The notes under the pieces were generated by a model, which was not told the DNA's origin, searched no databases, and saw nothing but the letters and a program-made list of their open reading frames with translations. From assembly GCA_025356595.1 (NCBI GenBank), contig JANXSQ010000412.1:1-60890 (forward strand): DNA of 60,890 nucleotides. Reading direction: 5' to 3'. Position numbers and translations under genes: made by a program. This DNA is from Janthinobacterium sp. Its GTDB lineage: Bacteria > Pseudomonadota > Gammaproteobacteria > Burkholderiales > Burkholderiaceae_D. This document shows, piece after piece, positions 2,144-60,890 of this stretch; the first letter of the stretch is position 1, and each line of letters starts with the position of its first letter.

Positions 2144-3049
2144 ATGAGAATGATTAAAAAAAGCCACCTAGCAGCAATGACCATTTCGCTGGGCCTGCTT
2201 AGCGCCTGCAGCAGCACCTCCCACCGCGCCCCGGTCGTCGACCGCACCTCGGTCGAGGCCACCAAGGGCATCGTCGACGACGCGCGCAACCGCGACCCGG
2301 CCTATTACACCGTCAAGAAGGGCGACACGCTGCTGCGCATCGCCCTCGAGTACGGACAGAATTACCGCGACCTCGTGAGCTGGAACAATCTCTCCAACCC
2401 GAACGACATCAAGGTCGACCAGGTGCTGCGCGTGGCGCCGCCGGAGGCCGGCTCGGGCGCGCAAACGGTGGCCGTGCAGATGCCGCCGGTCGAAACGCGG
2501 CCGGCGCCGGCGCCGCCGGTGCCGAAGAAATCGACGCCGCGCGGCGACAAGCGCGCCTATTCCGACGCCGCGCTGGCCGAACTGCAGCGCGCCGACGGCG
2601 CCCCGGCCAAGCCGGAGATCGTCGCCACGGCGGCGCGCGTGGCGCCGGCCGCCGCGGCCGTCGCCTCGAGCGCCGAGGACGAGCGGCTGACCTGGATGTG
2701 GCCGTCCGACGGGCGCATCATCGCCACCTTCGACGAGGGCAAGAACAAGGGCATCGACATCGCCGGCAAGGCCGGCCAGCAGGTGATGGCGGCCGGCGCC
2801 GGAAAAGTCATGTACGCCGGCAGCGGCATCCGCGGATATGGTAATCTCGTCATTGTGAAGCACACCAATAGTTTGTTGTCGGCGTACGCGCACAACCGCA
2901 GCATCGTCGTCAAGGAAGGCCAGAACGTCAACAAGGGCCAGATGATCGCCGAGATGGGCGATTCCGACAGCGACGGCGTGAAGCTGCATTTTGAAATACG
3001 TCAGCAGGGAAAACCGGTCGATCCTTCGAAATTCTTGCCTAACCGTTAG
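2144..3049 (+). CDS. nlpD: NlpD-type lipoprotein (LysM plus degenerate M23)
   Basis: NlpD is an outer-membrane lipoprotein that activates a periplasmic amidase (AmiC) during daughter-cell separation. The sequence shows a signal peptide ending in the lipobox LLSAC, a LysM peptidoglycan-binding domain (about residues 47-90), a Pro/Ala linker, and a C-terminal M23 domain (about 195-300). The first zinc histidine of an active M23 enzyme is replaced (KGIDI where active members have H-x-G-x-D), as in known NlpD proteins, so it should be a non-catalytic activator. I start at ATG 2144, directly before the basic signal peptide; ATG 2150 is equally possible. It lies between pcm and rpoS. In other bacteria nlpD contains the main rpoS promoter. 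Confidence 0.93.
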
Positions 3050-3057
3050 ATACCGCA

Positions 3058-4062
3058 ATGACACACTCGCCGCACGACCATCTGGAAGACGACCCGCCAC
3101 CGGACGATCCGCTGGACGAGATGGACGGCGATGGCGGCGAGGCGGCGGACGAGGAGGAGGGCGGCGACGTCGTCGTGGCGGCGCTCGAGAGCGTCGACGA
3201 ATTGAAGAAGGTGCTGGCGGCCGAGCTCTCGACCGACACCACGCAGCACTACCTGAACCAGATCGGCACGCGCGCGCTGCTGACGGCGCCGCAGGAGGTG
3301 CATTACGCGACGCTGGCCAAGCAGGGCAATTTCGCCGCCCGCCAGACCATGATCGAGCACAATCTGCGCCTGGTGGTGTCGATCGCCAAGCACTACATCA
3401 ACCGCGGCGTGGTCCTGCTCGACATGATAGAGGAGGGCAACATCGGCCTGATGCGGGCGATCGACAAGTTCGAACCGGAGCGCGGCTTCCGCTTCTCCAC
3501 CTACGCCACCTGGTGGATACGCCAGAGCATAGAGCGGGCCATCATGAACCAGGCCCGCACGGTGCGCCTGCCGGTGCACATGGTGCGCGAGCTGAACCAG
3601 ATCCTGCGCGGCAAATACCACCTCGAGGCGCAGCACCACAACGGCAAGGACGCCACCGCCGAGGACATCGCCCAGCTGGTCGGGCGCTCGGTCGAGGAGG
3701 TGCAGGATATCCTGGCCCTGTCCGAGCACGCCACCTCGCTCGACGCGCCGCTCGACAACGACCCGCAGTCGTCGCTGATGGACATGCTGCCGGGCGACGC
3801 CGACGCCAGCCCCGACGCGCGCGCCGAGCACCACGAAATGACGGTGCTGGTGCGCGACTGGCTCACCAAGCTGCCCGACAAGCAGCGCATCGTCATCATG
3901 CGCCGCTTCGGGCTCGACAACGACGATCCGGCCACGCTGGAAACGCTGGCCGAGGAAATGGGCGTCACGCGCGAGCGGGTGCGGCAGATCCAGCAGGAGG
4001 CGCTGGTCAAGCTGAAGCGCGCGATGGCGGCGCGCGGCGTCGTGCGCGATTCCCTGCTGTAG
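3058..4062 (+). CDS. rpoS: RNA polymerase sigma factor RpoS
   Basis: Sigma-38, the stationary-phase and general stress sigma factor. Region 2 ([20 protein letters not shown], then [16 protein letters not shown]), region 3 and region 4 with the helix-turn-helix [18 protein letters not shown] are intact over 334 residues. It starts 8 bases after nlpD. The first 45-50 residues are strongly acidic and rich in Asp, Glu and Pro, longer and more acidic than the E. coli N-terminus. This tail is a visible peculiarity; its role is unknown to me. Confidence 0.97.
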
Positions 4063-4269
4063 GCGGCGGCGCGCCGGCCGTCCCGCGGGCTCCGCCCGGA
4101 CCCGCGTCCGCGGTTCCGGCCGGCGCCGCTCTGCCCGCGGCGCCCGCCATCCAGGCCCCGGGCCGCATCTGCTATCATACGACCCGCTCGCGGCGTCGCC
4201 ATCGCGCCCATCCCCCCATTCCGCAGTCGGGCCGCCCCGCGCCTGGCCCACTTTTTTATATTGATCGCT

Positions 4270-5610
4270 ATGCAAGAAAATATCATCGAAATCGAATCGC
4301 TCGACATGGACGCCCGCGGCGTCGGCCATCTGCAGAACGAGGACGGCAGTCCGGGCAAGGTGGTGTTCGTCGAGGGGGCCTTGCCGGGCGAGCGCGTGAG
4401 CTACCTGACGCTGAAGAAAAAGAAGAATTGGGAAGTCGGCCGCATGACCGTGATGCACCGCGAATCGGCGCTGCGCATGAAGCCGAAGTGCGTGCATTTC
4501 GAGACCTGCGGCGGTTGCTCGATGCAGCATCTGGAGCCGTCGGCCCAGGTCGCCGTCAAGCAGCGCGTGCTGGAGGACAATCTCGCGCGCATCGGCAAGG
4601 TGCGTCCGGAAACCATCATGCGTCCCATGTACGGCCCGACCTGGGGCTACCGCTACCGCGCCCGCCTGTCGGTGCGCTATGTGCAGAAGAAGGACACGGT
4701 GCTGGTCGGCTTCCATGAAAAGAAATCGGCCTATGTCGCCGACATCAGCAGCTGCGAAATCCTGCCGCCGCATGTGTCGAAGATGCTGCTGCCGCTGCGC
4801 GCCCTGATCGGCGCCCTGTCGATCTTCGAGCAACTGCCGCAGATCGAACTGGCCGTCGGCGACAACGTCACCGCGATGGTGCTGCGCATCATGGCGCCGT
4901 TGACGCCCGCCGATGAGCTCAAGCTGAAGGCCTTCGCCGACGCCTGGGACGTGCAGTGGTGGTTGCAGGAGAAGGGCCCCGAAACGGCCGCGCCCTATTA
5001 TCCGCTGGACAAGGAGCTGTATTACCTCTTGCCCGAATTCGGCGTCAAGATGCCCTTCAAGCCGGTCGATTTCACCCAGGTGAACCACCTGATCAACCGG
5101 GTGCTGGTGGCCAAGGCGCTGCGCCTTTTGGCCGTCGAAGCGCAAGACCGCGTCGCCGACCTGTTCTGCGGCCTGGGCAACTTCACTCTGCCGCTGGCCA
5201 CGCAGGGCAGGGAAGTCGTCGGCATCGAAGGCAGCACCGCGCTGACCGAGCGGGCGCTGGAAAACGCCAGGGCGAACGGCCTGTCGGCCAAGACCTCCTT
5301 CTCGACGCGCAATCTGTTCGACATGACGACCGCGGACTTGATCGCGCTGGGCAAGTTCGACCGCATGCTGATCGACCCGCCGCGCGACGGCGCCATGGCC
5401 GTCTGCGAGGCGCTGGCCGGCCTGCGCCAGAGCCGTCCCGAGCTGCTGCCCAAGCGCATCGTGTATGTCTCGTGCAGCCCGTCCACGCTGGCGCGCGACG
5501 CCGGCGTGCTGGTGCTGGAGGCCGGTTACGTGCTCAAGCAGGCCGGCGTCGTCAATATGTTCCCGCACACCTCGCACGTCGAATCGATGGCGGTGTTCGA
5601 GCTGGCTTAA
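4270..5610 (+). CDS. rlmD: 23S rRNA (uracil-1939-C5)-methyltransferase RlmD
   Basis: RlmD (RumA) methylates U1939 of 23S rRNA with SAM. An N-terminal TRAM domain (about residues 3-62) is followed by the iron-sulfur cysteines Cys74, Cys80 and Cys83 (C-x5-C-x2-C) and the later SSCEILPP cysteine. The C-terminal Rossmann methyltransferase has the DLFCGLGNFTLPLA SAM motif and the catalytic-cysteine block YVSCSPSTLARD. I take ATG 4270 rather than the in-frame TTG nine bases earlier. The 207 bases before it, after rpoS, are GC-rich and hold no other gene. Confidence 0.95.
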   Translation: MQENIIEIESLDMDARGVGHLQNEDGSPGKVVFVEGALPGERVSYLTLKKKKNWEVGRMTVMHRESALRMKPKCVHFETCGGCSMQHLEPSAQVAVKQRVLEDNLARIGKVRPETIMRPMYGPTWGYRYRARLSVRYVQKKDTVLVGFHEKKSAYVADISSCEILPPHVSKMLLPLRALIGALSIFEQLPQIELAVGDNVTAMVLRIMAPLTPADELKLKAFADAWDVQWWLQEKGPETAAPYYPLDKELYYLLPEFGVKMPFKPVDFTQVNHLINRVLVAKALRLLAVEAQDRVADLFCGLGNFTLPLATQGREVVGIEGSTALTERALENARANGLSAKTSFSTRNLFDMTTADLIALGKFDRMLIDPPRDGAMAVCEALAGLRQSRPELLPKRIVYVSCSPSTLARDAGVLVLEAGYVLKQAGVVNMFPHTSHVESMAVFELA

Positions 5611-6060: not shown

Positions 6061-8001
<1,941 letters not shown>

Positions 8002-8014
8002 TCGGCAGACCGGG

Positions 8015-8051
8015 ACGGCGGGCGCGGCTGCACCGGCCCGCCGTTTTTTTT
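8015..8051 (+). terminator. Rho-independent terminator after chitinase
   Basis: A nine-base-pair stem ACGGCGGGC / GCCCGCCGT (8015-8023 with 8036-8044) runs into an eight-base T tract. It separates the chitinase from the next gene, whose ribosome site starts only 13 bases later. Confidence 0.85.
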
Positions 8052-8073
8052 CGATGCTATGAAGGAGGTGGGA

Positions 8074-9093
8074 ATGTATAGAGTGCGCTCCCCGGCGCCT
8101 GAATTGAGTCATGAGTGGCGGCGCTGGATCGCCGAAAACCTGATCCTGGGCACGCATCCCGCCAGCCTGATTCCCCTGCTGCTGCAGAACGGCATCGCCG
8201 AGCGGGACGCCGTCACCGAGGTGGAGCTGGCGTTGCGCAGCCCGTACATCGAGGGCGCCGGCCGGCTGAAGAACCGCCTGGCCAAGCGCGACTGGGTGCT
8301 CGAAATCCAGTCCAAGCTGAACCGCCTGAGCGCGCCGCGGATCGCGCGCCGCCAGCGCCTGTCGGGCGAGGAATTTCTGGCCGATTATTACAGCGCGAAC
8401 CGGCCGGTGATCATCACCGGCATGATGGACGATTGGCCGGCGCTGCAGAAATGGACGCCGGATTACTTCCGCGCCAATTACGCCGGGCGCGAGGTGGAGG
8501 TCCAGTTCGGCCGCGACGCCGATCAGGATTATGAGTTGAACAGCATCGCGCACAAGCGCAAGATGCCTTTCGGCGCCTATGTCGACCTGGTGCAAAACAG
8601 CGGCAGCAGCAATGATTTCTATATGACGGCAAATAACGATTCATTGAACCGCCAGGCGTTGACGGAGCTGTGGGCCGACATCGGGCAATTGCCGGAATAC
8701 CTGGCCCGGGAGGCGCAGCCGCGCGGCTTCTTCTGGTTCGGCCCGGCCGGCACCGTCACGCCCTTCCACCATGACTTGACGAACAACTTCATGGCCCAGG
8801 TGTTCGGGCGCAAGCGCGTGCGCATCATCCCTGCCTGCGAAGTGGCCAAGGTGTACAACCAGCGGCACTGCTTTTCCCTGCTGGACGGGCGCGCCATCGA
8901 TCTGGCCCGCTTTCCCGACGCGGCCGGCGCGCAAGTGCTCGAATGCGTGCTGGAGCCGGGCGAGATCCTCTTCCTGCCGGTCGGTTGCTGGCACTTCGTC
9001 GAGGCGCTGGACATCTCGGCGACCATCGCCTTCATCAACTTCCACTGGGATAATGATTTCTACAGCAATTATCCGAGCAAGCACGAGTTTTGA
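8074..9093 (+). CDS. Cupin-like (JmjC/FIH-type) oxygenase family protein
   Basis: The protein is 339 residues and resembles bacterial cupin_8/JmjC-like iron(II)- and 2-oxoglutarate-dependent proteins. The phrase RPVIITGMMDDWPALQKW is the typical start of the fold. The metal facial triad is visible as the H-x-D of TPFHHDLTNN (about residue 229) and the distal His of GCWHFVEAL. I start at ATG 8074 because it has a textbook GGAGGTG four bases upstream; an ATG at 8059 does not. The N-terminal 100 residues are helical and not recognised. The substrate is unknown; relatives hydroxylate protein or small-molecule targets. Its closeness to the chitinase suggests no obvious link, since a terminator separates them. 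Confidence 0.75.
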   Translation: MYRVRSPAPELSHEWRRWIAENLILGTHPASLIPLLLQNGIAERDAVTEVELALRSPYIEGAGRLKNRLAKRDWVLEIQSKLNRLSAPRIARRQRLSGEEFLADYYSANRPVIITGMMDDWPALQKWTPDYFRANYAGREVEVQFGRDADQDYELNSIAHKRKMPFGAYVDLVQNSGSSNDFYMTANNDSLNRQALTELWADIGQLPEYLAREAQPRGFFWFGPAGTVTPFHHDLTNNFMAQVFGRKRVRIIPACEVAKVYNQRHCFSLLDGRAIDLARFPDAAGAQVLECVLEPGEILFLPVGCWHFVEALDISATIAFINFHWDNDFYSNYPSKHEF

Positions 9094-9142
9094 CGCATCC
9101 GAGGATCGCCGGCATCCAGGCGTTCGCGCCGGGCCGGGACGT

Positions 9143-9173
9143 AAAAAAGCCGACCTCGCGGGTCGGCTTTTTA
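9143..9173. terminator. Bidirectional terminator between convergent genes
   Basis: Stem GCCGACC / GGTCGGC with loop TCGCG, flanked by six A on the left and five T on the right, so it can stop transcription from the cupin gene (+) and from the convergent Bax-inhibitor gene (-). Confidence 0.9.
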
Positions 9174-9186
9174 CTGGCTGGCGCGC

Positions 9187-9870
9187 TTAATCGCGGCTGC
9201 CGCCCAGGCCCAGCAGGGAGAGCAGGCTGGTGAAGATGTTGTAGACGTCGAGGTAGATGCGCAGCGTCGCCGAGATGTAGTTGGTCTCGCCGCCGTTGAT
9301 GATCTGCTGCACGTCGTACAGGATGTAGGCCGAGAAGATACCGATCGCCATCACCGAGATCGCGATCGACAGCGCCGACATGCCCAGGAAGATGTTGGCC
9401 ACGGAGGCCAGCAACAGCACGATGACGCCGGCGAACAGCCATTTGCCCATTTGCGAGAAGTCGCGCTTGGAGACGGTGGCGATGGTCGCCATCACGGCCA
9501 GGATGGTGGCGGTGCCGCCGAAGGCCGTCATGATCAGCGTGCCGCCGTTCGAGTAACCAAGGGTGCGCGTCAGGATGGGGGTCAGCATCAGGCCCATGAA
9601 GAAGGTGAAGCCCAGCAGCACGGCCACGCCGAGGCCGGAGTTCTTGGTCTTTTCGATGGCGAAGATGAAGCCGAAGGCGACCGCCATGAACAGCAGCATG
9701 CCCATGCCGCCGCCCATCATCGGCAGGTGCATCTGCACGCCGACGAAGGCGCCGAAGACGGTCGGTATCATCGACAGGGCCAGCAGCCAGTAGGTGTTGC
9801 GCAGCACGCGGTGGCGCACTTGCTGCATGCCACCCGACAGGTCATAGGTTTGTTGCATGTTTTGGTTCAT
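9187..9870 (-). CDS. Bax inhibitor-1/YccA family membrane protein
   Basis: A 227-residue polytopic inner-membrane protein of the BI-1 (UPF0005) family. About seven hydrophobic segments are visible, and the polar C-terminal helix region contains the conserved acidic residues (YILYDVQQIINGG). E. coli YccA of this family interacts with the FtsH-HflKC protease complex, whose hflK and hflC homologues lie 11 kb downstream here. The ATG is preceded by GGAGG five bases upstream on the minus strand. It is a single-gene unit, divergent from ndk. Confidence 0.9.
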   Translation of the reverse strand: MNQNMQQTYDLSGGMQQVRHRVLRNTYWLLALSMIPTVFGAFVGVQMHLPMMGGGMGMLLFMAVAFGFIFAIEKTKNSGLGVAVLLGFTFFMGLMLTPILTRTLGYSNGGTLIMTAFGGTATILAVMATIATVSKRDFSQMGKWLFAGVIVLLLASVANIFLGMSALSIAISVMAIGIFSAYILYDVQQIINGGETNYISATLRIYLDVYNIFTSLLSLLGLGGSRD

Positions 9871-9985
9871 AATGCCTCCGAGTCATTGGATCAGTTTACT
9901 ACTTGGTCCAAGCATAGCACGGCTGCCGATTTTCACAAAAAATCTAGCTTAAGAATCAATTAAACGCAGGATATGCGGGGCCGGA

Positions 9986-10008
9986 CGCCTCCCCGCGAGG
10001 CGGTTTTT
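9986..10008 (+). terminator. Terminator-like hairpin upstream of ndk
   Basis: Stem CGCCTC / GAGGCG, loop CCCGC, followed by GTTTTT. It lies between the divergent yccA-like gene and ndk, with no plus-strand gene before it. It may be a chance structure, an attenuator of an upstream transcript, or a remnant. A TAAAAT at 10032-10037 downstream may be the ndk -10. Confidence 0.35.
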
Positions 10009-10098
10009 GGGTGCCGCGGGGTGTAGTATGGTAAAATCGAAGGTTGATTGAGTTATCAATTTTGTTTTAAACCTTTCTTTTTATTGGAGTTTTTACAC

Positions 10099-10515
10099 AT
10101 GGCTATCGAACGCACCCTGTCGATCATCAAACCAGACGCAGTCGCTAAAAACGTCATCGGCCAAATCTACAGCCGCTTTGAAGGCGCTGGCCTGAAGATC
10201 ATCGCAGCACGCATGACCCAACTGTCGCGCGAAGAAGCTGAAGGCTTCTACGCGGCGCACAAGGAACGCGGTTTCTTCAAGGACCTGGTTGACTTCATGG
10301 TTTCCGGTCCTGTCATGATCCAAGCCCTGGAAGGCGAAAACGCCGTCCTGGCCCACCGCGACCTGATGGGTGCGACGGATCCTAAGAAAGCGGAAAAAGG
10401 CACGATCCGCGCCGATTTCGCTGAATCGATCGACGCCAACGCAGTGCACGGCTCCGACGCCGTCGACGCCGCCAAGGTCGAAATCGCTTACTTCTTCCCA
10501 GGCTTCGCAGCCTAA
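10099..10515 (+). CDS. ndk: Nucleoside diphosphate kinase
   Basis: Ndk equilibrates nucleoside tri- and diphosphates through a phosphohistidine. The 138-residue protein begins [14 protein letters not shown] and has the active-site block NAVHGSD. The ATG at 10099 has GGAG about ten bases upstream and is the family start. The C-terminus is shorter and different from most relatives (it ends in Phe-Pro-Gly-Phe-Ala-Ala rather than the usual Tyr-Ser-Arg-type end). It begins the long housekeeping run but is closed by its own terminator. Confidence 0.97.
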
Positions 10516-10541
10516 GTTCTGCCCGCTTTGACCGATGTATA

Positions 10542-10580
10542 CCGTTCCCGCCGCGCCTCGCGCGCGGGAACGGATTTTTT
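10542..10580 (+). terminator. Rho-independent terminator after ndk
   Basis: A long inverted repeat CCGTTCCCGC / GCGGGAACGG around a GC-rich loop, followed by ATTTTTT, 26 bases after the ndk stop. Confidence 0.85.
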
Positions 10581-10601
10581 AGAATTGTTTTGAAACCGAT
10601 T

Positions 10602-11773
<1,172 letters not shown>

Positions 11774-11774
<1 letters not shown>

Positions 11775-12592
11775 TGACGGGCCTGGCTCAGCGCTGCGCG
11801 CTCGCCCTGCTCGCCTGCTGCCTGCTCGGGCCGCTGGGCGGCTGCGCGACGGGCGGCGGCGCGGGGCAGAGCGGGCGCGCCGAGCTGGCCACCAGCTCGG
11901 ACCAGTCGACGGCGCAAAAGCGCGCGGCGATCCGCATGCAACTGGCCGTCGGCTATTATGAGCAGGGCCAGTTCGAGGTCGCGCTGGACGAGATCAAGCA
12001 GGCGCTGCAGGCCGACCCGGAGTTCGCCGACGCCTACGGCGTGCGCGCCCTGATCTACATGGGCATGGGGCAGACGGCGCTGGCCGAGGATAATTTCCTG
12101 CGCGCGCTGAAACTGGCGCCGCAGCACCCGGACTTGAGCAATAATTACGGCTCCTTCCTGTGCCAGAACGGCCGCGCCGCCCAGTCCATCGCCTATTTCG
12201 AGACGGCGCTGAAGAATCCGGCCTACCAGTCGCCGGGCCAGGCCTACAATAACGCCGGCTCGTGCAGCCTGAAGGTCAAGGACAACGCCGGCGCCGAGCG
12301 CTACCTGCTGCGGGCGCTGCAATTCACGCCCGAGTCGCCGGCGACGAACGCCAATCTGGCGCGCGTTTATTATGAGCGGCGCGATTACGCGCGGGCGGGA
12401 TTGTTCGTTTCCCGCTTGACGAAAGTAGCGAAAATGGAGAGCCTGACGGCCGATGTGCTGTGGCTCGCGATCAAGGTGCAGCATCAGCTCGGTGATGCGG
12501 GCGCGGAAGCAAGCATGGCGACGCAATTGCGCCGTCATCATTCCGCCTCGCCCGAGTATGCTGCTTATCAACGTGGGGCGTTTGATGAGTGA
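11774..12592 (+). CDS. pilW: Type IV pilus biogenesis TPR lipoprotein PilW/PilF
   Basis: An outer-membrane pilotin-like lipoprotein needed for assembly of the PilQ secretin. The signal peptide ends in the lipobox LGGC. Tetratricopeptide repeats then fill most of the 272-residue protein (for example the segments beginning MQLAVGYYEQGQFEVALDEI and DLSNNYGSFLCQNGRAAQSI). The position rlmN-pilW-rodZ-ispG is the conserved beta/gammaproteobacterial order. It overlaps rlmN by one base and ends next to rodZ. Confidence 0.93.
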
Positions 12593-53727: not shown

Positions 53728-54615
53728 TTACGCCGCGGCGATCTGGTGGTTCGACATGATCTCGATGGCGCGGCACAGCGCCGAGTGGTCCATGCCGCCC
53801 AGGCCGTGCGCGGCGCAGCAGTTCATCAGCTCCTGCGCGGTGGCGGTGTTGGGCAGGGCGATGCCGAGCGCCTTCGCGCCCTGCAGCGCCAGGTTCAGAT
53901 CCTTCTGGTGCAGCTCGATGCGGAAGCCCGGATTGAAGGTGCGCTTGACCATCCGCTCGCCGTGCACTTCCAGGATGCGCGAGGCGGCGAAACCACCCAT
54001 CAGCGCCTGGCGCACCTTGGCCGGATCGGCGCCGGCCTTGGAGGCGAACAGCAGCGCCTCGGCCACCGCCTGGATGTTCAGCGCGACGATGATCTGGTTG
54101 GCCACCTTGGTGGTCTGGCCGTCGCCGTTGGCGCCGACCAGGGTGATGTTCTTGCCCATCAGTTCGAACAACGGCAAGGCCGTGTCGAAGGCCGCCTGCG
54201 GGCCGCCGACCATGATCGTCAGCGAGGCCGCCTTCGCGCCCACTTCACCGCCCGACACCGGAGCGTCCAGATAGTCGCACTGCAGGGCGTTGATGCGCTG
54301 GGCGAATTCCTTGGTGGCGATGGGCGAGATGGAGCTCATGTCGATGACGAGCTTGCCGGCGCTGAGTCCGGCGGCCACGCCCTCGTCGCCGAACAGCACG
54401 GCCTCGACATGCGGCGTGTCCGGCACCATGACGATGACGATGTCGGCCCGCTTCGCCACTTCGGCGCCGGAGGTGCAGACGGTGGCGCCGCCTTCGATCA
54501 GGCTGAAGGGGGGATTCTTATGGTCGAACAAATACAGTTTGTGGTCGCCCTTTTGCAGGTTTTCCGCCATCGGCGCGCCCATGATGCCCAGTCCGATAAA
54601 GCCGATTTTTGCCAT
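53728..54615 (-). CDS. glxR: 2-hydroxy-3-oxopropionate (tartronate semialdehyde) reductase
   Basis: A 295-residue NADH-dependent beta-hydroxyacid dehydrogenase reducing tartronate semialdehyde to D-glycerate. The dinucleotide motif GFIGLGIMGAPMA is at the N-terminus, the substrate motif DAPVSGGEVGA at about 120, and the catalytic lysine in TTKVANQ. Operon order gcl-hyi-glxR-glxK. Confidence 0.96.
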   Translation of the reverse strand: MAKIGFIGLGIMGAPMAENLQKGDHKLYLFDHKNPPFSLIEGGATVCTSGAEVAKRADIVIVMVPDTPHVEAVLFGDEGVAAGLSAGKLVIDMSSISPIATKEFAQRINALQCDYLDAPVSGGEVGAKAASLTIMVGGPQAAFDTALPLFELMGKNITLVGANGDGQTTKVANQIIVALNIQAVAEALLFASKAGADPAKVRQALMGGFAASRILEVHGERMVKRTFNPGFRIELHQKDLNLALQGAKALGIALPNTATAQELMNCCAAHGLGGMDHSALCRAIEIMSNHQIAAA

Positions 54616-54672
54616 GATAGTTCTCCTGAAAGTGAATGAATGATTGACTGAGTGAGCGTGTGCGGGTGTGGC

Positions 54673-55452
54673 TCAGAGGCCGTGCGCGGCGCGCCAGTCC
54701 AGGCCGGCCAGGGTGGCGCCGCGCGGCTTGTACTCGCAGCCTATCCAGCCCTCGTAGCCCAGGGTGTCGAGCAGTTCGAACAGGTAGCGGTAGTTGATTT
54801 CGCCGCTGCCCGGTTCTCCCCGGCCCGGATTGTCGGCCAGTTGCACATGGCCGATCAGCGGCAGATTGGCCTTGATGGTGTTGGCCAGTTCGCCCTCCAT
54901 TCGCTGCATGTGATAAATGTCGTACTGGACGAAGAGATTGTCGGAGCCCGTCGCGGCGATCAGCTCGAGGGCCTGCGCCGTGCCGGACAGGAAGAAGCCG
55001 GGAATGTCGAAGGTGTTGATCGGTTCGATCAGCAGGCGGATGCCGGCCTGCTTCAGGGTGCCGGCCGCGTAGGTGAGGTTGGCGACCAGGGTCTGCTGGG
55101 CGCGCTCGGCGCTGACGCCGGGCGGCAGGATGCCGGCCAGGCAGTTCAACTGCGTGACGCCGAGCGCCTTGGCGTAGACGATGGCGTCGGCCACGCCCCG
55201 GCGGAATTCATCGACCCGGTCCGGGTGGCAGGCGATGCCGCGTTCGCCCCGCTCCCAAGCGCCGGCCGGCAGGTTGTGCAGCACCAGTCGCAGCTGGTGG
55301 GCGTCGAGCTGGGCGGCGATGTCGGCGGCCGGATAGGCGTAGGGGAAGAGGAATTCCACGCCCTTGAAGCCGGCGTGCGCGGCGGCCGCGAAGCGCTCCA
55401 TGAAGGGCACTTCGTTGAACAGCATGGTCAGATTGGCTGCCAGTTTGGTCAT
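54673..55452 (-). CDS. hyi: Hydroxypyruvate isomerase
   Basis: A 259-residue xylose-isomerase-like TIM barrel that interconverts hydroxypyruvate and tartronate semialdehyde. Conserved metal-site segments include LIEPINTFDIPGFFL, QYDIYHMQRMEG and IGHVQLADNPGRGEPG. The ATG at 55452 has AAAGGATCC nearby; 13 bases separate it from gcl. Confidence 0.96.
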   Translation of the reverse strand: MTKLAANLTMLFNEVPFMERFAAAAHAGFKGVEFLFPYAYPAADIAAQLDAHQLRLVLHNLPAGAWERGERGIACHPDRVDEFRRGVADAIVYAKALGVTQLNCLAGILPPGVSAERAQQTLVANLTYAAGTLKQAGIRLLIEPINTFDIPGFFLSGTAQALELIAATGSDNLFVQYDIYHMQRMEGELANTIKANLPLIGHVQLADNPGRGEPGSGEINYRYLFELLDTLGYEGWIGCEYKPRGATLAGLDWRAAHGL

Positions 55453-55465
55453 GATGGATCCTTTC

Positions 55466-57241
<1,776 letters not shown>

Positions 57242-57284: not shown

Positions 57285-57375
57285 TAATGCGAAACATAAA
57301 GTTTGATAAGGGGACAAAAAATCGTATTATTCGATACCTGATGTATTGAATCGATGTCGCCGGAAGGGCTGGAAA

Positions 57376-58284
57376 ATGGACAAGCTGAAGCAGATCGAAG
57401 CCTTCGTCGACGTCGTCGAACATGGCAGCCTGGCGCGCGCGGCGCTGGGGCAGAACATCACGCCGGTGATGCTGGGGCGGCGCATCGACGCGCTGGAAAA
57501 GCGCCTCGGCGTCAAGCTGATGCACCGCAGCACGCGGCATCTGCGCCTGACGGAGGAGGGCACGGTCTTCCTCGACCACTGCAAGACCCTGCTCAGCGAC
57601 CTGGACAACGCCGAGAAGATCATTTCCGAGGGCCGCCACAAGGCCACCGGGCATCTGGTGGTGTCGGCGCCGGCCGCCTACGGGCGCATGCACGTGGCGC
57701 CGCACGCGCCGGGCTTCCTGGCCGAGCATCCGGACGTGAAGATTTCGTTCAACCTGACCGACCGCGTGGTCGACCTGGTGCGCGAAGGCTACGACGTGAG
57801 CATCCGCATCGGCGGCGCGATCGATCCCAGCTTCGTCGCCATCAAGCTGGCCAGCAACCGCCGCGTGGTGTGCGCGACGCCCGACTACCTGCGCCGCAAG
57901 GGCGTCCCGCGTACCCTGGACGACCTGGAAAAACACAACTGCCTGGCCTTCAATCTGCAGGGCGGACAGCAGCGCGGCTGGTACTTCCAGCACAACGGCA
58001 AGCCGGTGACGATGCGCGTCGAGGGCGACCTCGATTGCAACGACGGCGAGCTGCTGCACCGCTGGGCCAGCGAGGGCCTGGGACTGGCGTGGCGCTCGAC
58101 CTGGGAGATCCAGGCGCAACTGGCGGCGGGCGAGCTGATCACCGTGCTCGACGACTACGCCCTGCCGGACTACAACATCATGGCCGTGTATCCGCAGCAG
58201 CGCCACCTGCCGGCCAAGGTGCGTTTTTTCGTCGAGAAACTGAAGACGCTGTATGCGCAGCCGGGGTATTGGATACGCGGCTGA
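57376..58284 (+). CDS. LysR-family regulator of the gcl operon
   Basis: A 302-residue LysR protein with the common N-terminus [20 protein letters not shown] and a full substrate-binding domain. It is divergent from gcl-hyi-glxR-glxK across 134 bases containing two palindromes, so it is the probable activator of glyoxylate use. GGAAGGGCTGG precedes the ATG. Confidence 0.9.
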
Positions 58285-58613: not shown

Positions 58614-59732
58614 ATGACTTATCTGCAAAAACTCGACACCATCGTCAACGCCACCATCATGCCGGCGGCGCAGGCCACCGACCGCGACGCGCTGTTCCCG
58701 CGCGCCGCCATCGACGCGCTGGGCGCGGCCGGGCTGCTCGGCCTGGTCAGCGACAAGGAGGTCGGCGGCATGGGCCTCGGCCTGGCCGAGGCCGCGCAAG
58801 TGATCGAGCGCATCGCCAAGGCCTGCCCGTCGACGGCGATGGTCGTCTGCATGCACTTTTGCGCCAGCACGGTGCTGGAGAAATTCGGCGACATCGCGGT
58901 GCGGCGCGACATCGCGGCCGGGCGCCATCTGAGCACCCTGGCCTGGTCCGACAGCGGCTCGCGCAGCCACTTCTGGGCGCCGGTCGGCACGGCGCGCGCC
59001 GACGGCGACGGCGTGCTGCTGGACGGCAGCAAGACCATGGTCACCTCGGCCGGCGAGGCCGACTCCTATGTCTGGTCGACCAAGCCGCTGGCCGGCGAGG
59101 GCGCGAGCACCCTGTGGTTGCTCGCCAGCGACACGGCCGGCATCAGCGAAGCGAAATTCTTCGACGGCATGGGCTTGCGCGGCAACCGTTCCTCGCCGCT
59201 GACGGCGCAGGCGGCGCGCCTGCCCGCCGCCGCGATGCTGGGCGCCGACGGCGGCGGCTTCGACATCATGATCGGCACCGTTCTGCCGCTCTTCGCCACC
59301 CTGATCGCATCGTGCTCGATGGGCCAGATGGAGGCCGTGCTCGAGGCATCCTGCGCCCATGTGAGCGCCAGCAAGCTCGAGCACCTGGGCAGCGCCCTGG
59401 CCGACCTGCCGACCATCCGCGCCTACCTGGCGCGGGCGCGCATCCAGGCCGACATGGTGCGCACCCTGCGCGACGACACGGTGGCGGCGCTGGCCGTGGG
59501 CCGCGCCGACGCGATGCTGCGCGTGATGCAGGTGAAGGCGGCGGCGGCCGAGGCGGCCCTGGAAGTGACCGACACGGCGATGCGGGTCTGCGGCGGCGCC
59601 GCCTTCCGCAAGGACCTCGGCGTGGAGCGCTATTTCCGCGACGCGCGGGCCGCCTCGGTGATGGCGCCGACCTCGGATGTCTTGTTCGATTTCATTGGCA
59701 AGGCCGTGTGCGGCATGCCGGTGTTCGGTTAA
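58614..59732 (+). CDS. Acyl-CoA-dehydrogenase-family flavoprotein
   Basis: A 372-residue protein of the acyl-CoA dehydrogenase fold: an N-terminal helical domain with GLVSDKEVGGMGLGLAEAA, a middle beta domain (STLAWSDSGSRSHFWAPVGT), and a C-terminal helical domain ending MRVCGGAAFRKDLGVERYFRD. The FAD-contact G-G-A-A motif is present. I do not see the usual catalytic Glu in its standard context, so it may be a monooxygenase-like or desulfurising relative rather than a true acyl-CoA dehydrogenase. First gene of a three-gene operon; AAAGGAT precedes the ATG. Confidence 0.82.
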   Translation: MTYLQKLDTIVNATIMPAAQATDRDALFPRAAIDALGAAGLLGLVSDKEVGGMGLGLAEAAQVIERIAKACPSTAMVVCMHFCASTVLEKFGDIAVRRDIAAGRHLSTLAWSDSGSRSHFWAPVGTARADGDGVLLDGSKTMVTSAGEADSYVWSTKPLAGEGASTLWLLASDTAGISEAKFFDGMGLRGNRSSPLTAQAARLPAAAMLGADGGGFDIMIGTVLPLFATLIASCSMGQMEAVLEASCAHVSASKLEHLGSALADLPTIRAYLARARIQADMVRTLRDDTVAALAVGRADAMLRVMQVKAAAAEAALEVTDTAMRVCGGAAFRKDLGVERYFRDARAASVMAPTSDVLFDFIGKAVCGMPVFG

Positions 59733-59742
59733 GGGGGGCGCG

Positions 59743-60609
59743 ATGACATCTCCATTGATGATGGGCGCGGTCGCCTACGCGCCGAAAGTGGTGACTATCT
59801 GGGAAGGCTTCAAGGAGTACTTCCGGCGCCACGATTTCGCCTTCGACTACATCCTGTATTCGAACTACGAGCGCCAGGTCGAGGCGCAATTCGAGGGCGC
59901 CATCGCGCTCGCCTGGAATTCGCCGCTGGCTTGGGTGCGCGCCGACCGCATCGCGCGCAGCCGCGGCCAGCAGGCGCATGCGGTGGCCATGCGCGACACC
60001 GACCGCGACCTGACCTCGGTGCTGGTGGCGCGCGCCGACAGTGCGCTCGGCGCCAGCGGCGCGCTGACCGATCTGGCCGGCGCGGTGGTCGGTTTCGGCG
60101 CCATCGATTCGCCCCAGGCGCGGCTGATTCCTCTGGACCATCTGCGCCAGCACGGCCTGATCGCCGGGCGCGACTACACGGCGCGGCGCTTCGATGTGCT
60201 CGGCGGTAAACACGGCGACCATATCGGCGGCGAACGCGATGCCGCGCTGGCCTTGATGGCGGGTGAGATCGACGCCGCCTGGATGATCGACGGCAATCAC
60301 ATGGCGTTTTCGCGCGAGGGCATCCTGCCGGCCGGCGCGACGCGCATCGTGGCGCGCACCGGCGCCTTCGATCACTGCAACTTCACCGTCAGCCCGGGCG
60401 CGCCGCAAGCGCAGATCGAGCGCTTCACCGAACTGCTGCTGGCCATGAGCTGGGACGATCCGGAAGTGCGCCCCCTGCTCGAACTGGAGGGGCTCAAGAC
60501 CTGGTTGCCGGGCCGCACCAGCGGCTACGAGGCGCTGATACGGGCCACCGACGACGAAGGTTTCTACGACCGGGAGGGCAACATCCGTGCCGTCGACTAT
60601 CAATATTGA
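59743..60609 (+). CDS. PhnD-like substrate-binding protein without signal peptide
   Basis: A 288-residue protein resembling the phosphate/phosphonate ABC binding-protein (PhnD) fold. Key segments are FAFDYILYSNYERQVEAQFE, IALAWNSPLAWVRAD and VVGFGAIDSPQARLIPLDHL. No signal peptide or lipobox is present: the start MTSPLMMGAVAYAPKV goes straight into the first strand, so it should be cytosolic. No permease or ATPase gene follows. It begins ten bases after the flavoprotein gene, with GGGGGG upstream, and overlaps the next gene. Confidence 0.78.
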   Translation: MTSPLMMGAVAYAPKVVTIWEGFKEYFRRHDFAFDYILYSNYERQVEAQFEGAIALAWNSPLAWVRADRIARSRGQQAHAVAMRDTDRDLTSVLVARADSALGASGALTDLAGAVVGFGAIDSPQARLIPLDHLRQHGLIAGRDYTARRFDVLGGKHGDHIGGERDAALALMAGEIDAAWMIDGNHMAFSREGILPAGATRIVARTGAFDHCNFTVSPGAPQAQIERFTELLLAMSWDDPEVRPLLELEGLKTWLPGRTSGYEALIRATDDEGFYDREGNIRAVDYQY

Positions 60610-60890
60610 GGACCTCGGCTTCGACGCGGGCGCCCATCTGCTGGTCAAGCATGGCCTGATGCAACTGGCGCCCGGCGGCGAGTTGCGCGTCGTGGGCAAC
60701 AGTCCCGGCTGGGAAAGCCAGCTCGCCGCCTGGTGCCGCAACCAGGGCCACGCCTGCCGGATCAGCGGGCCGGACGGCGACGCGGTCGCGCGGGTGGTGC
60801 GCGGCGACGCCGAGGCCGGGCGCTGGCGCGGCGCGCTGCACAGCGGCCACGCCGACCCCGCGCGCGAGGGCGCGGTGGCCGAACACGCGC
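60587..60890 (+). CDS. TusA-like protein, partial (runs off the window)
   Basis: The visible 101 codons start at a GTG inside the end of the previous gene, after GGGAGG. The first 60 residues look like a TusA/SirA fold (IEDLGFDAGAHLLVKHGLMQ, then GGELRVVGNSPGWESQLAAW, then GHACRI). The Cys-Pro-x-Pro motif that carries persulfide in TusA is replaced (FDAGA). What follows is Arg/Gly/Asp-rich and continues beyond the edge, so it is a larger protein. The function is unknown. Confidence 0.6.
   Translation, partial: MPSTINIEDLGFDAGAHLLVKHGLMQLAPGGELRVVGNSPGWESQLAAWCRNQGHACRISGPDGDAVARVVRGDAEAGRWRGALHSGHADPAREGAVAEHA

Follow-up and report, generated by a model that had tools for sequence, protein, structure and literature searches.

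According to the accessible parts of PMC9312934 and PMC13188914, prokaryotes have no known uptake system that is specific for selenium and of high affinity. Several accessory families, namely YedE, YedF, DUF3343 and LysR_Se, were found from the genomic context of selD (accessible part of PMC5322559), and type I mlp clusters, which are also linked to sel genes, have been proposed to recover selenium from methyl-selenides by means of corrinoid methyltransferases (accessible part of PMC10418091). NCBIfam further holds the families Rv1679 (FadE16), Rv1680 and Rv1681 (NF049984, NF049985 and NF049973), the first two of which form a pair of an acyl-CoA dehydrogenase (ACAD)-fold protein and a binding protein, and TIGR04553, a putative selenate substrate-binding protein. 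Here we describe a gene trio encoding an ACAD-fold flavoprotein, a binding protein of the same fold as PhnD and a third protein that begins with a TusA-like domain. It lies at the end of a contig from Janthinobacterium sp. (JANXSQ010000412.1); this entire contig of 60,890 bases (C238, from a source genome of 5.67 Mb in 419 contigs) is called the window below. The trio likely belongs to selenium metabolism, and we lean, with some reserve, towards a selenium-handling module that acts upstream of SelD and obtains or salvages selenium.

The genes had been described in the initial annotation as tightly coupled, and the coordinates of the open reading frames (ORFs) bear this out, with a gap of 10 bases between the ACAD and binding-protein genes and an overlap of 23 bases between the binding-protein and third genes (Table 1). 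Because the contig stops inside codon 102 of the third gene, the TusA-like protein seen earlier was a partial view of a fusion. In relatives, the third gene encodes about 400 amino acids, of which the first ~100 residues are TusA-like and the remaining ~300 constitute a ferritin-like diiron domain resembling AurF and VlmB. A free TusA-like protein is therefore ruled out by the contig end within the gene and the length of the fusion in relatives. Because a search of the window's own genome for the third gene returned the N-terminal piece alone, the diiron half in this organism is deduced from its relatives.

To place the trio in context, we collected the best 80 of 124 relatives from a scan of genome contigs and added three plasmid loci (83 in total, L039-L121); ORFs were called mechanically and clustered to derive the gene orders. 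The order ACAD, binding protein, fusion recurs in Burkholderiales, Nitrosomonadales and an Acidobacteriota metagenome-assembled genome (MAG; L117), and it is rearranged in Luteimonas, Lampropedia and a Planctomycetota MAG. Of 250 genomes sampled across the order, the five with the binding protein were also the five with the fusion protein. The trio is thereby confirmed as a real and recurring module, more than a chance arrangement. By tblastn, 70 of the 80 loci have the third gene in full length, four (L039, L078, L107 and L109) have it running off the contig, and L086 and L092 have a C-terminal piece only; the contigs of L087 and L115 end before it could be seen, and the search found it neither in L110 and L118 nor in the three plasmid loci.

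The genes selA, selB, selD and fdhD were sought by BLAST in flanks of at most 10 kb, often shorter. A sel gene (selD, selA or selB) lies within the flank in 13 of the 80 loci, or 12 without a duplicate strain (L111, identical to L081), and also on the Miltoncostaea plasmid L119. In seven loci (L081 and L111 of that one strain, L083, L084, L091, L093 and L108), selD directly follows the trio with gaps of -3 to 46 bases, in L108 behind a rearranged trio order. Of the SelD proteins that follow the trio, those of L084 and L108 were recognized by hidden Markov model (HMM; 431.6 and 426.2 bits; cut-off 125), the other five by BLAST; BLAST places SelD within all seven of these loci and within Luteimonas L102 and L103, where selD, selB and selA are close by on the opposite strand. 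The pair selA-selB lies upstream of the trio in Ideonella (L075, L077 and L080) and in Ramlibacter (L107), with fdhD downstream in Ideonella (FdhD of L075, 177.4 bits by HMM; cut-off 140.9). Coordinates in three genomes of the Xenophilus group (G313, G315 and G322) show ybbB convergent to the trio-selD cluster.

Among 50 loci, we counted eight selD neighbours in three clades, compared with approximately 0.2 expected by a rough Poisson estimate, and P is approximately 0.001 when they are counted as clades. A binding-protein tree of 69 rows, built without 15 of the 83 loci, requires seven changes in the label of a selenium neighbour (13 rows carry it, the plasmid being one of them), and well-supported branches force at least six of these changes. 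From these changes the selenium neighbourhood is read as having arisen or been lost several times.

The link extends to whole genomes. SelD is present in 78 of the 80 distinct genome entries that carry the trio, the window's own included (51 of 51 plus 28 of 30, with that genome, G000, counted in both sets); L116 was left out of these 80, and one strain is present twice (L081, L111). Carriers of SelD include members of the Planctomycetota (L112) and Acidobacteriota (L117) as well as Gemella (L118), and each of these SelD matches has one in-frame TGA. In the order-wide sample, SelD was found in 179 of 250 genomes and in all five of those with the trio. Comparing trio genomes with this sample, the five left out, gives a Fisher P of approximately 5 × 10−8, which overstates the case because these are related genomes and because some lineages in the sample are distant from those that carry the trio.

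The users of selenium, by comparison, vary. SelA occurs in 36 of 51 trio genomes (69 of 250 in the order-wide sample), YbbB in 46, with SelA in the remaining five, and SenB in 18, the figures for YbbB and SenB being counts with no background behind them; each of the 51 genomes has SelD plus SelA or YbbB. A role in selenocysteine synthesis only is ruled out by the 15 genomes from which SelA is missing, and one in selenoneine synthesis only by the small share with SenB. SelD, and no single sink, is the common denominator, which favours a role in selenium supply.

Several observations weigh against a selenium role. No sel gene was found in the flanks of 67 of the 80 loci, some of these flanks being short and the search covering selA, selB, selD and fdhD only. 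The mycobacterial-type plasmid stretches from Mycolicibacterium and Rhodococcus likewise contain no sel genes; their binding proteins form a distant branch. SelD is common anyway, being present in 39 of 40 genomes of the window's genus, so that the co-occurrence partly reflects shared ancestry and the association within the genus, where SelD is nearly universal, is uninformative. Two trio MAGs (G339 and G341) are without SelD; the one genome of the genus that has no SelD, G029, carries the binding protein and is apparently the same MAG as L039/G339, judging from matching contig coordinates. Finally, in the window's own genome selD is on a separate contig, within a selenoneine cluster.

That cluster (L122; G000:C270:1-9500, at 2239-5530) holds senA (527.5 bits; cut-off 420), senB (432 bits; cut-off 300) and the only SelD match of the genome, in which YbbB is present and no SelA match was found. 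This raises an alternative that we consider improbable, though it is the strongest of its kind, namely that the trio makes a selenium-containing small molecule from the selenophosphate supplied by SelD, as SenB and SenA do for selenoneine. The oxygenase-type enzymes and the adjoining selD do resemble a biosynthetic cluster, and the Miltoncostaea plasmid also has radical SAM, glycosyltransferase and DUF2064 genes nearby. However, few other neighbour clusters are common to the families, with the qualification that most neighbours are unannotated and that a recurring carrier or ligase is possible. In L081/G313, moreover, the selD linked to the trio is the sole SelD match of its genome, in which SelA and YbbB have to be supplied as well.

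The position of fdhD suggests a second alternative, in which the trio acts on a sulfur target or on a molybdenum/formate dehydrogenase target and the selenium genes are neighbours through co-location with accessory genes of selenocysteine-containing formate dehydrogenase. The gene fdhD follows the trio directly in Ideonella and is close to it in Lampropedia, the third protein begins with a TusA-like fold, and the NCBIfam relatives of the ACAD protein include the sulfur enzymes SfnB and DszC. We regard this explanation as quite unlikely: all 15 trio genomes without SelA have SelD and YbbB, and the Xenophilus-group loci have ybbB and selD as neighbours without an fdhD match. The proposal of the initial annotation, that a phosphonate or organosulfur compound is used or sensed independently of uptake, has very little left in its favour, since a clear Pfam phosphonate-binding domain and ACAD-fold relatives from sulfur acquisition are set against a PhnD score far under its cut-off (30.5 bits; 261.1 required), an S-P-Q in place of the S-T-S of PtxB, and annotated or scanned neighbourhoods in which neither a C-P lyase gene nor a sulfonate gene was noticed. 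Its picture of an uncharacterised trio with a binding-protein fold apart from transport partners holds; its guess of sulfur or C-P/C-S use is replaced by selenium because of the selD, selA, selB and ybbB neighbours and the genome-wide co-occurrence with SelD.

We compared the binding protein with described families. The window protein matches PF12974 (Phosphonate-bd) with 90 bits against a cut-off of 27; its best NCBIfam relative is the Rv1680 SBP-like family (232.3 bits, under the cut-off of 400), followed by TIGR04553 with 59 bits. Ten residues are invariant in 28 of 28 binding proteins and form the clusters R84-D85-D87, D122-S123, H157-G-D159 and H211-C212, together with E164. Because S123-P-Q aligns with the S-T-S stretch of PtxB, which we take to be its anion-binding site, the invariant residues plausibly line the cleft.

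The initial annotation had noted a phosphonate-type binding protein with no export signal and no ABC partners. The first part agrees with crude tests, which relied on the position of start codons and on hydrophobicity over 15 residues: in 83 of 83 loci a start codon is at most 13 residues from the start of the fold, and the most hydrophobic 15-residue stretch upstream reaches 1.59, less than the 1.76 of a control with a signal peptide. The binding protein is thus presumably cytosolic. As for partners, the genes that adjoin it are, at nearly all loci, those for the ACAD and fusion proteins, not phnC or phnE, and no ABC genes are listed in the three annotated plasmid stretches, most further neighbours at the other loci being unannotated. 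As far as these data reach, the second part agrees as well, and a component of a PhnD transporter is ruled out by the score for the PhnD equivalog family TIGR03431, the adjoining genes and the missing indications of an export signal.

TIGR04553 has a related fold and adjoins selD in the window's genus, which speaks for a selenium role of the trio. Unlike the trio protein, which carries the invariant His-Cys, it comes with ABC partners and, by eye, a signal peptide. In 22 of 28 loci of the genus (L011-L038), SelD adjoins a weak match to the binding protein, and in one of them (L019) a TIGR04553 protein of 407 bits stands next to selD and is followed by ATPase and permease genes, as judged by eye. 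At another place in the window's genome (L130; G000:C87:1-8000), genes that look by eye like EgtB and EgtD adjoin a TIGR04553-like binding protein that has a signal peptide and is accompanied by genes for an ATPase and a permease; hercynine genes may stand beside a selenium transporter here.

The ACAD fold assigned to the first gene is corroborated by Pfam, with the N-terminal, middle and C-terminal domains (PF02771, PF02770 and PF00441) all above cut-off in the window protein. Its best NCBIfam relative is Rv1679/FadE16 (377.6 bits, under the cut-off of 600). In short-chain acyl-CoA dehydrogenase (SCAD), the Glu of the YEGTSE motif is the catalytic residue, and its loss is typical of ACAD-fold enzymes other than acyl-CoA dehydrogenases. 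In the alignment, A351 of the window protein occupies this position, and a Glu is found there in none of 79 sequences, 76 of which show M-A/G/S-P by pattern while the other three were judged by eye. This absence rules out an ordinary acyl-CoA dehydrogenase.

The N-terminal domain of the third protein is TusA-like by weak but uniform evidence. The window domain scores 23.0 bits for PF01206, below the cut-off of 28.6, and the family matches 21 of 21 N-terminal domains at E values up to 1 (best 4e-6). CPxP is the persulfide motif of TusA, and no Cys was found at this position in the alignment of relatives; the sole well-conserved Cys lies in a WCR motif (25 of 26 rows). The lost persulfide motif claimed earlier therefore stands, whereas the stand-alone TusA does not, since the domain is joined covalently to a diiron domain, in which it also differs from TusA/SirA-like carriers.

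The C-terminal part of the third protein is, by its motifs, a ferritin-like diiron protein in the relatives. AurF-like diiron sites use four Glu and two His as ligands, with two of the Glu within E-x-x-H motifs. The domain has two D-E-x-R-H motifs and further invariant Glu, and the ligand positions E179, E181, E213-H216, E263 and E293-H296 (L044 numbering) are invariant in 21 of 21 relatives; the window stops ahead of all of them. AurF (PF11583) matches 21 of 21 C-terminal domains at E values up to 0.1, with 30.2 bits for the L044 domain (cut-off 29.6) and 27.4-29.0 bits for three full-length proteins; the best match in the PDB is a VlmB homolog (6d9f, E 2e-5). The two E-x-x-H motifs and further Glu are thus common to the AurF/VlmB-type oxygenases, whereas the similarity is weak and the fusion to a TusA-like domain sets the trio protein apart. 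AurF carries an extra His ligand, and by eye no invariant residue stands at the corresponding place. No functionally assigned Pfam or NCBIfam family clearly covers the third gene.

The third position of the module is variable. The window proteins remain under the cut-offs of both Rv1679 and Rv1680, and the third gene in Proteobacteria encodes the TusA-like/diiron fusion instead of a radical SAM protein. In Mycolicibacterium (L120), the ACAD and binding-protein genes are followed by a gene whose radical SAM product belongs to the Rv1681 family (535.7 bits; cut-off 380). An Rv1681-like protein is encoded three genes upstream of the ACAD gene in Miltoncostaea (L119; 225.5 bits, under the same cut-off). 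For a TusA-like domain common to the diiron and radical SAM proteins, hhalign gave a probability of 5.9% with an E value of 0.0064, and the Pfam match in L120 had an E value of 0.2. In Gemella sanguinis (L118, ~7560-12460), two ACAD genes, the binding protein, a MetE-type methyltransferase and an OsmC protein stand in a row, and this is the only locus seen with a known MetE-type protein in place of the diiron gene.

The Miltoncostaea plasmid (~500-14850) combines selB-selA-selD, tRNA-Sec, DM13, DoxX, a member of the carboxymuconolactone decarboxylase family, radical SAM, glycosyltransferase, DUF2064, ACAD, binding-protein, DUF2515 and rSAM/SPASM genes, and it may be a selenium-dependent biosynthetic cluster. 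In a search for riboswitches with Rfam at gathering scores, 8 of the 83 loci returned just the tRNA-Sec of this plasmid. The module may be disappearing from some lineages: at G123:C23:33480-34645 the binding-protein gene is split over two frames and the fusion gene has a stop, and in L086 (~10855-11214) and L092 (~10891-11097) a C-terminal part of the fusion adjoins the binding protein, all of these being decayed or misassembled.

Type I mlp clusters resemble the trio as accessory clusters that are linked to sel genes and have a proposed role in recovering selenium from methylated forms, but they are corrinoid-dependent and anaerobic, whereas the trio includes a flavoprotein and a diiron protein (mlp data from the accessible part of PMC10418091). 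Among annotated or scanned neighbours we noticed neither a corrinoid protein nor a UroD-type methyltransferase, most neighbours being unannotated. When the variants of the third gene and the type I mlp clusters are considered together, they suggest that the trio could free an organic selenium compound of its carbon, with aerobes using O2 chemistry for this.

A selenium-handling module of this kind could work in four steps. The cytosolic PhnD-like protein would capture a selenium compound, with the invariant His-Cys in or near the cleft, and the ACAD-fold protein, having lost the catalytic base, would act on the captured compound as an oxygen- or redox-using flavoenzyme. The TusA-like/diiron protein, whose ligand positions are conserved, would then oxidise a C-Se or methyl-Se group, and its TusA-like domain, without the Cys of a persulfide carrier, might serve for docking or hand-over. 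Freed selenide would pass to SelD, to which the genomic link points, and be converted to selenophosphate. We offer the specific cleavage of an organoselenium or methyl-selenium compound as a tentative idea that we hold to be clearly less likely than not. Slightly more doubtful still is the broader speculation that the trio is an O2-using counterpart of anaerobic corrinoid methyl-selenide salvage, in which binding protein, flavoenzyme and diiron oxygenase would strip the carbon and hand selenide to SelD, and the third component would vary with lifestyle (a diiron protein in aerobic Proteobacteria, a radical SAM protein in Actinobacteria and a MetE-type methyltransferase in Gemella).

We present the selenium link of this uncharacterised trio as a new result; the architecture is solid, the link reproducible and the chemistry hypothetical. 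Among the titles listed, which are a partial set, no paper on the function of Rv1679, Rv1680, Rv1681, moeX or fadE16 was found. The trio is likewise absent from the titles and abstract openings of a literature set, holding little subscription literature, on TusA/selenium/selD, selenophosphate synthetase, the selenate ABC transporter, ovoselenol/selenoneine and organoselenium. Neither phosphonate nor TusA nor acyl-CoA dehydrogenase (for two of the papers, sought as acyl-CoA) is mentioned in the main texts of PMC5322559, PMC9312934, PMC13188914 and PMC5029168. In its accessible part, PMC5322559 does not list the trio among the selenium accessory genes, and the families that it likewise reports from selD context are other protein families than those of the trio.

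The trio probably helps the cell to obtain or recycle selenium. If it feeds SelD, it would be a concrete and testable gene set for the acquisition of scarce selenium by aerobic bacteria. It would also exemplify two unusual uses of proteins, one a binding-protein fold that serves as a partner in the cytosol, the other a diiron oxygenase that carries a fused TusA-like domain, and would provide a lead on the function of the uncharacterised Rv1679-Rv1681 families.

Table 1. Position and extent of the three trio genes in the window.
Gene	Coordinates	Strand	Remarks
ACAD-fold flavoprotein gene	58614..59732	+	372 aa ORF
PhnD-like binding-protein gene	59743..60609	+	288 aa ORF
Third gene, first 101 codons	60587..60890	+	GTG start at 60587; 3′ end open

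Upstream of the trio, a LysR-type regulator was recognized by eye on the forward strand (57346-58284). Further upstream, three genes on the reverse strand (53728-57241) were read by eye as encoding tartronate semialdehyde reductase, hydroxypyruvate isomerase and glyoxylate carboligase. These genes probably form a glyoxylate operon that has nothing to do with the trio.

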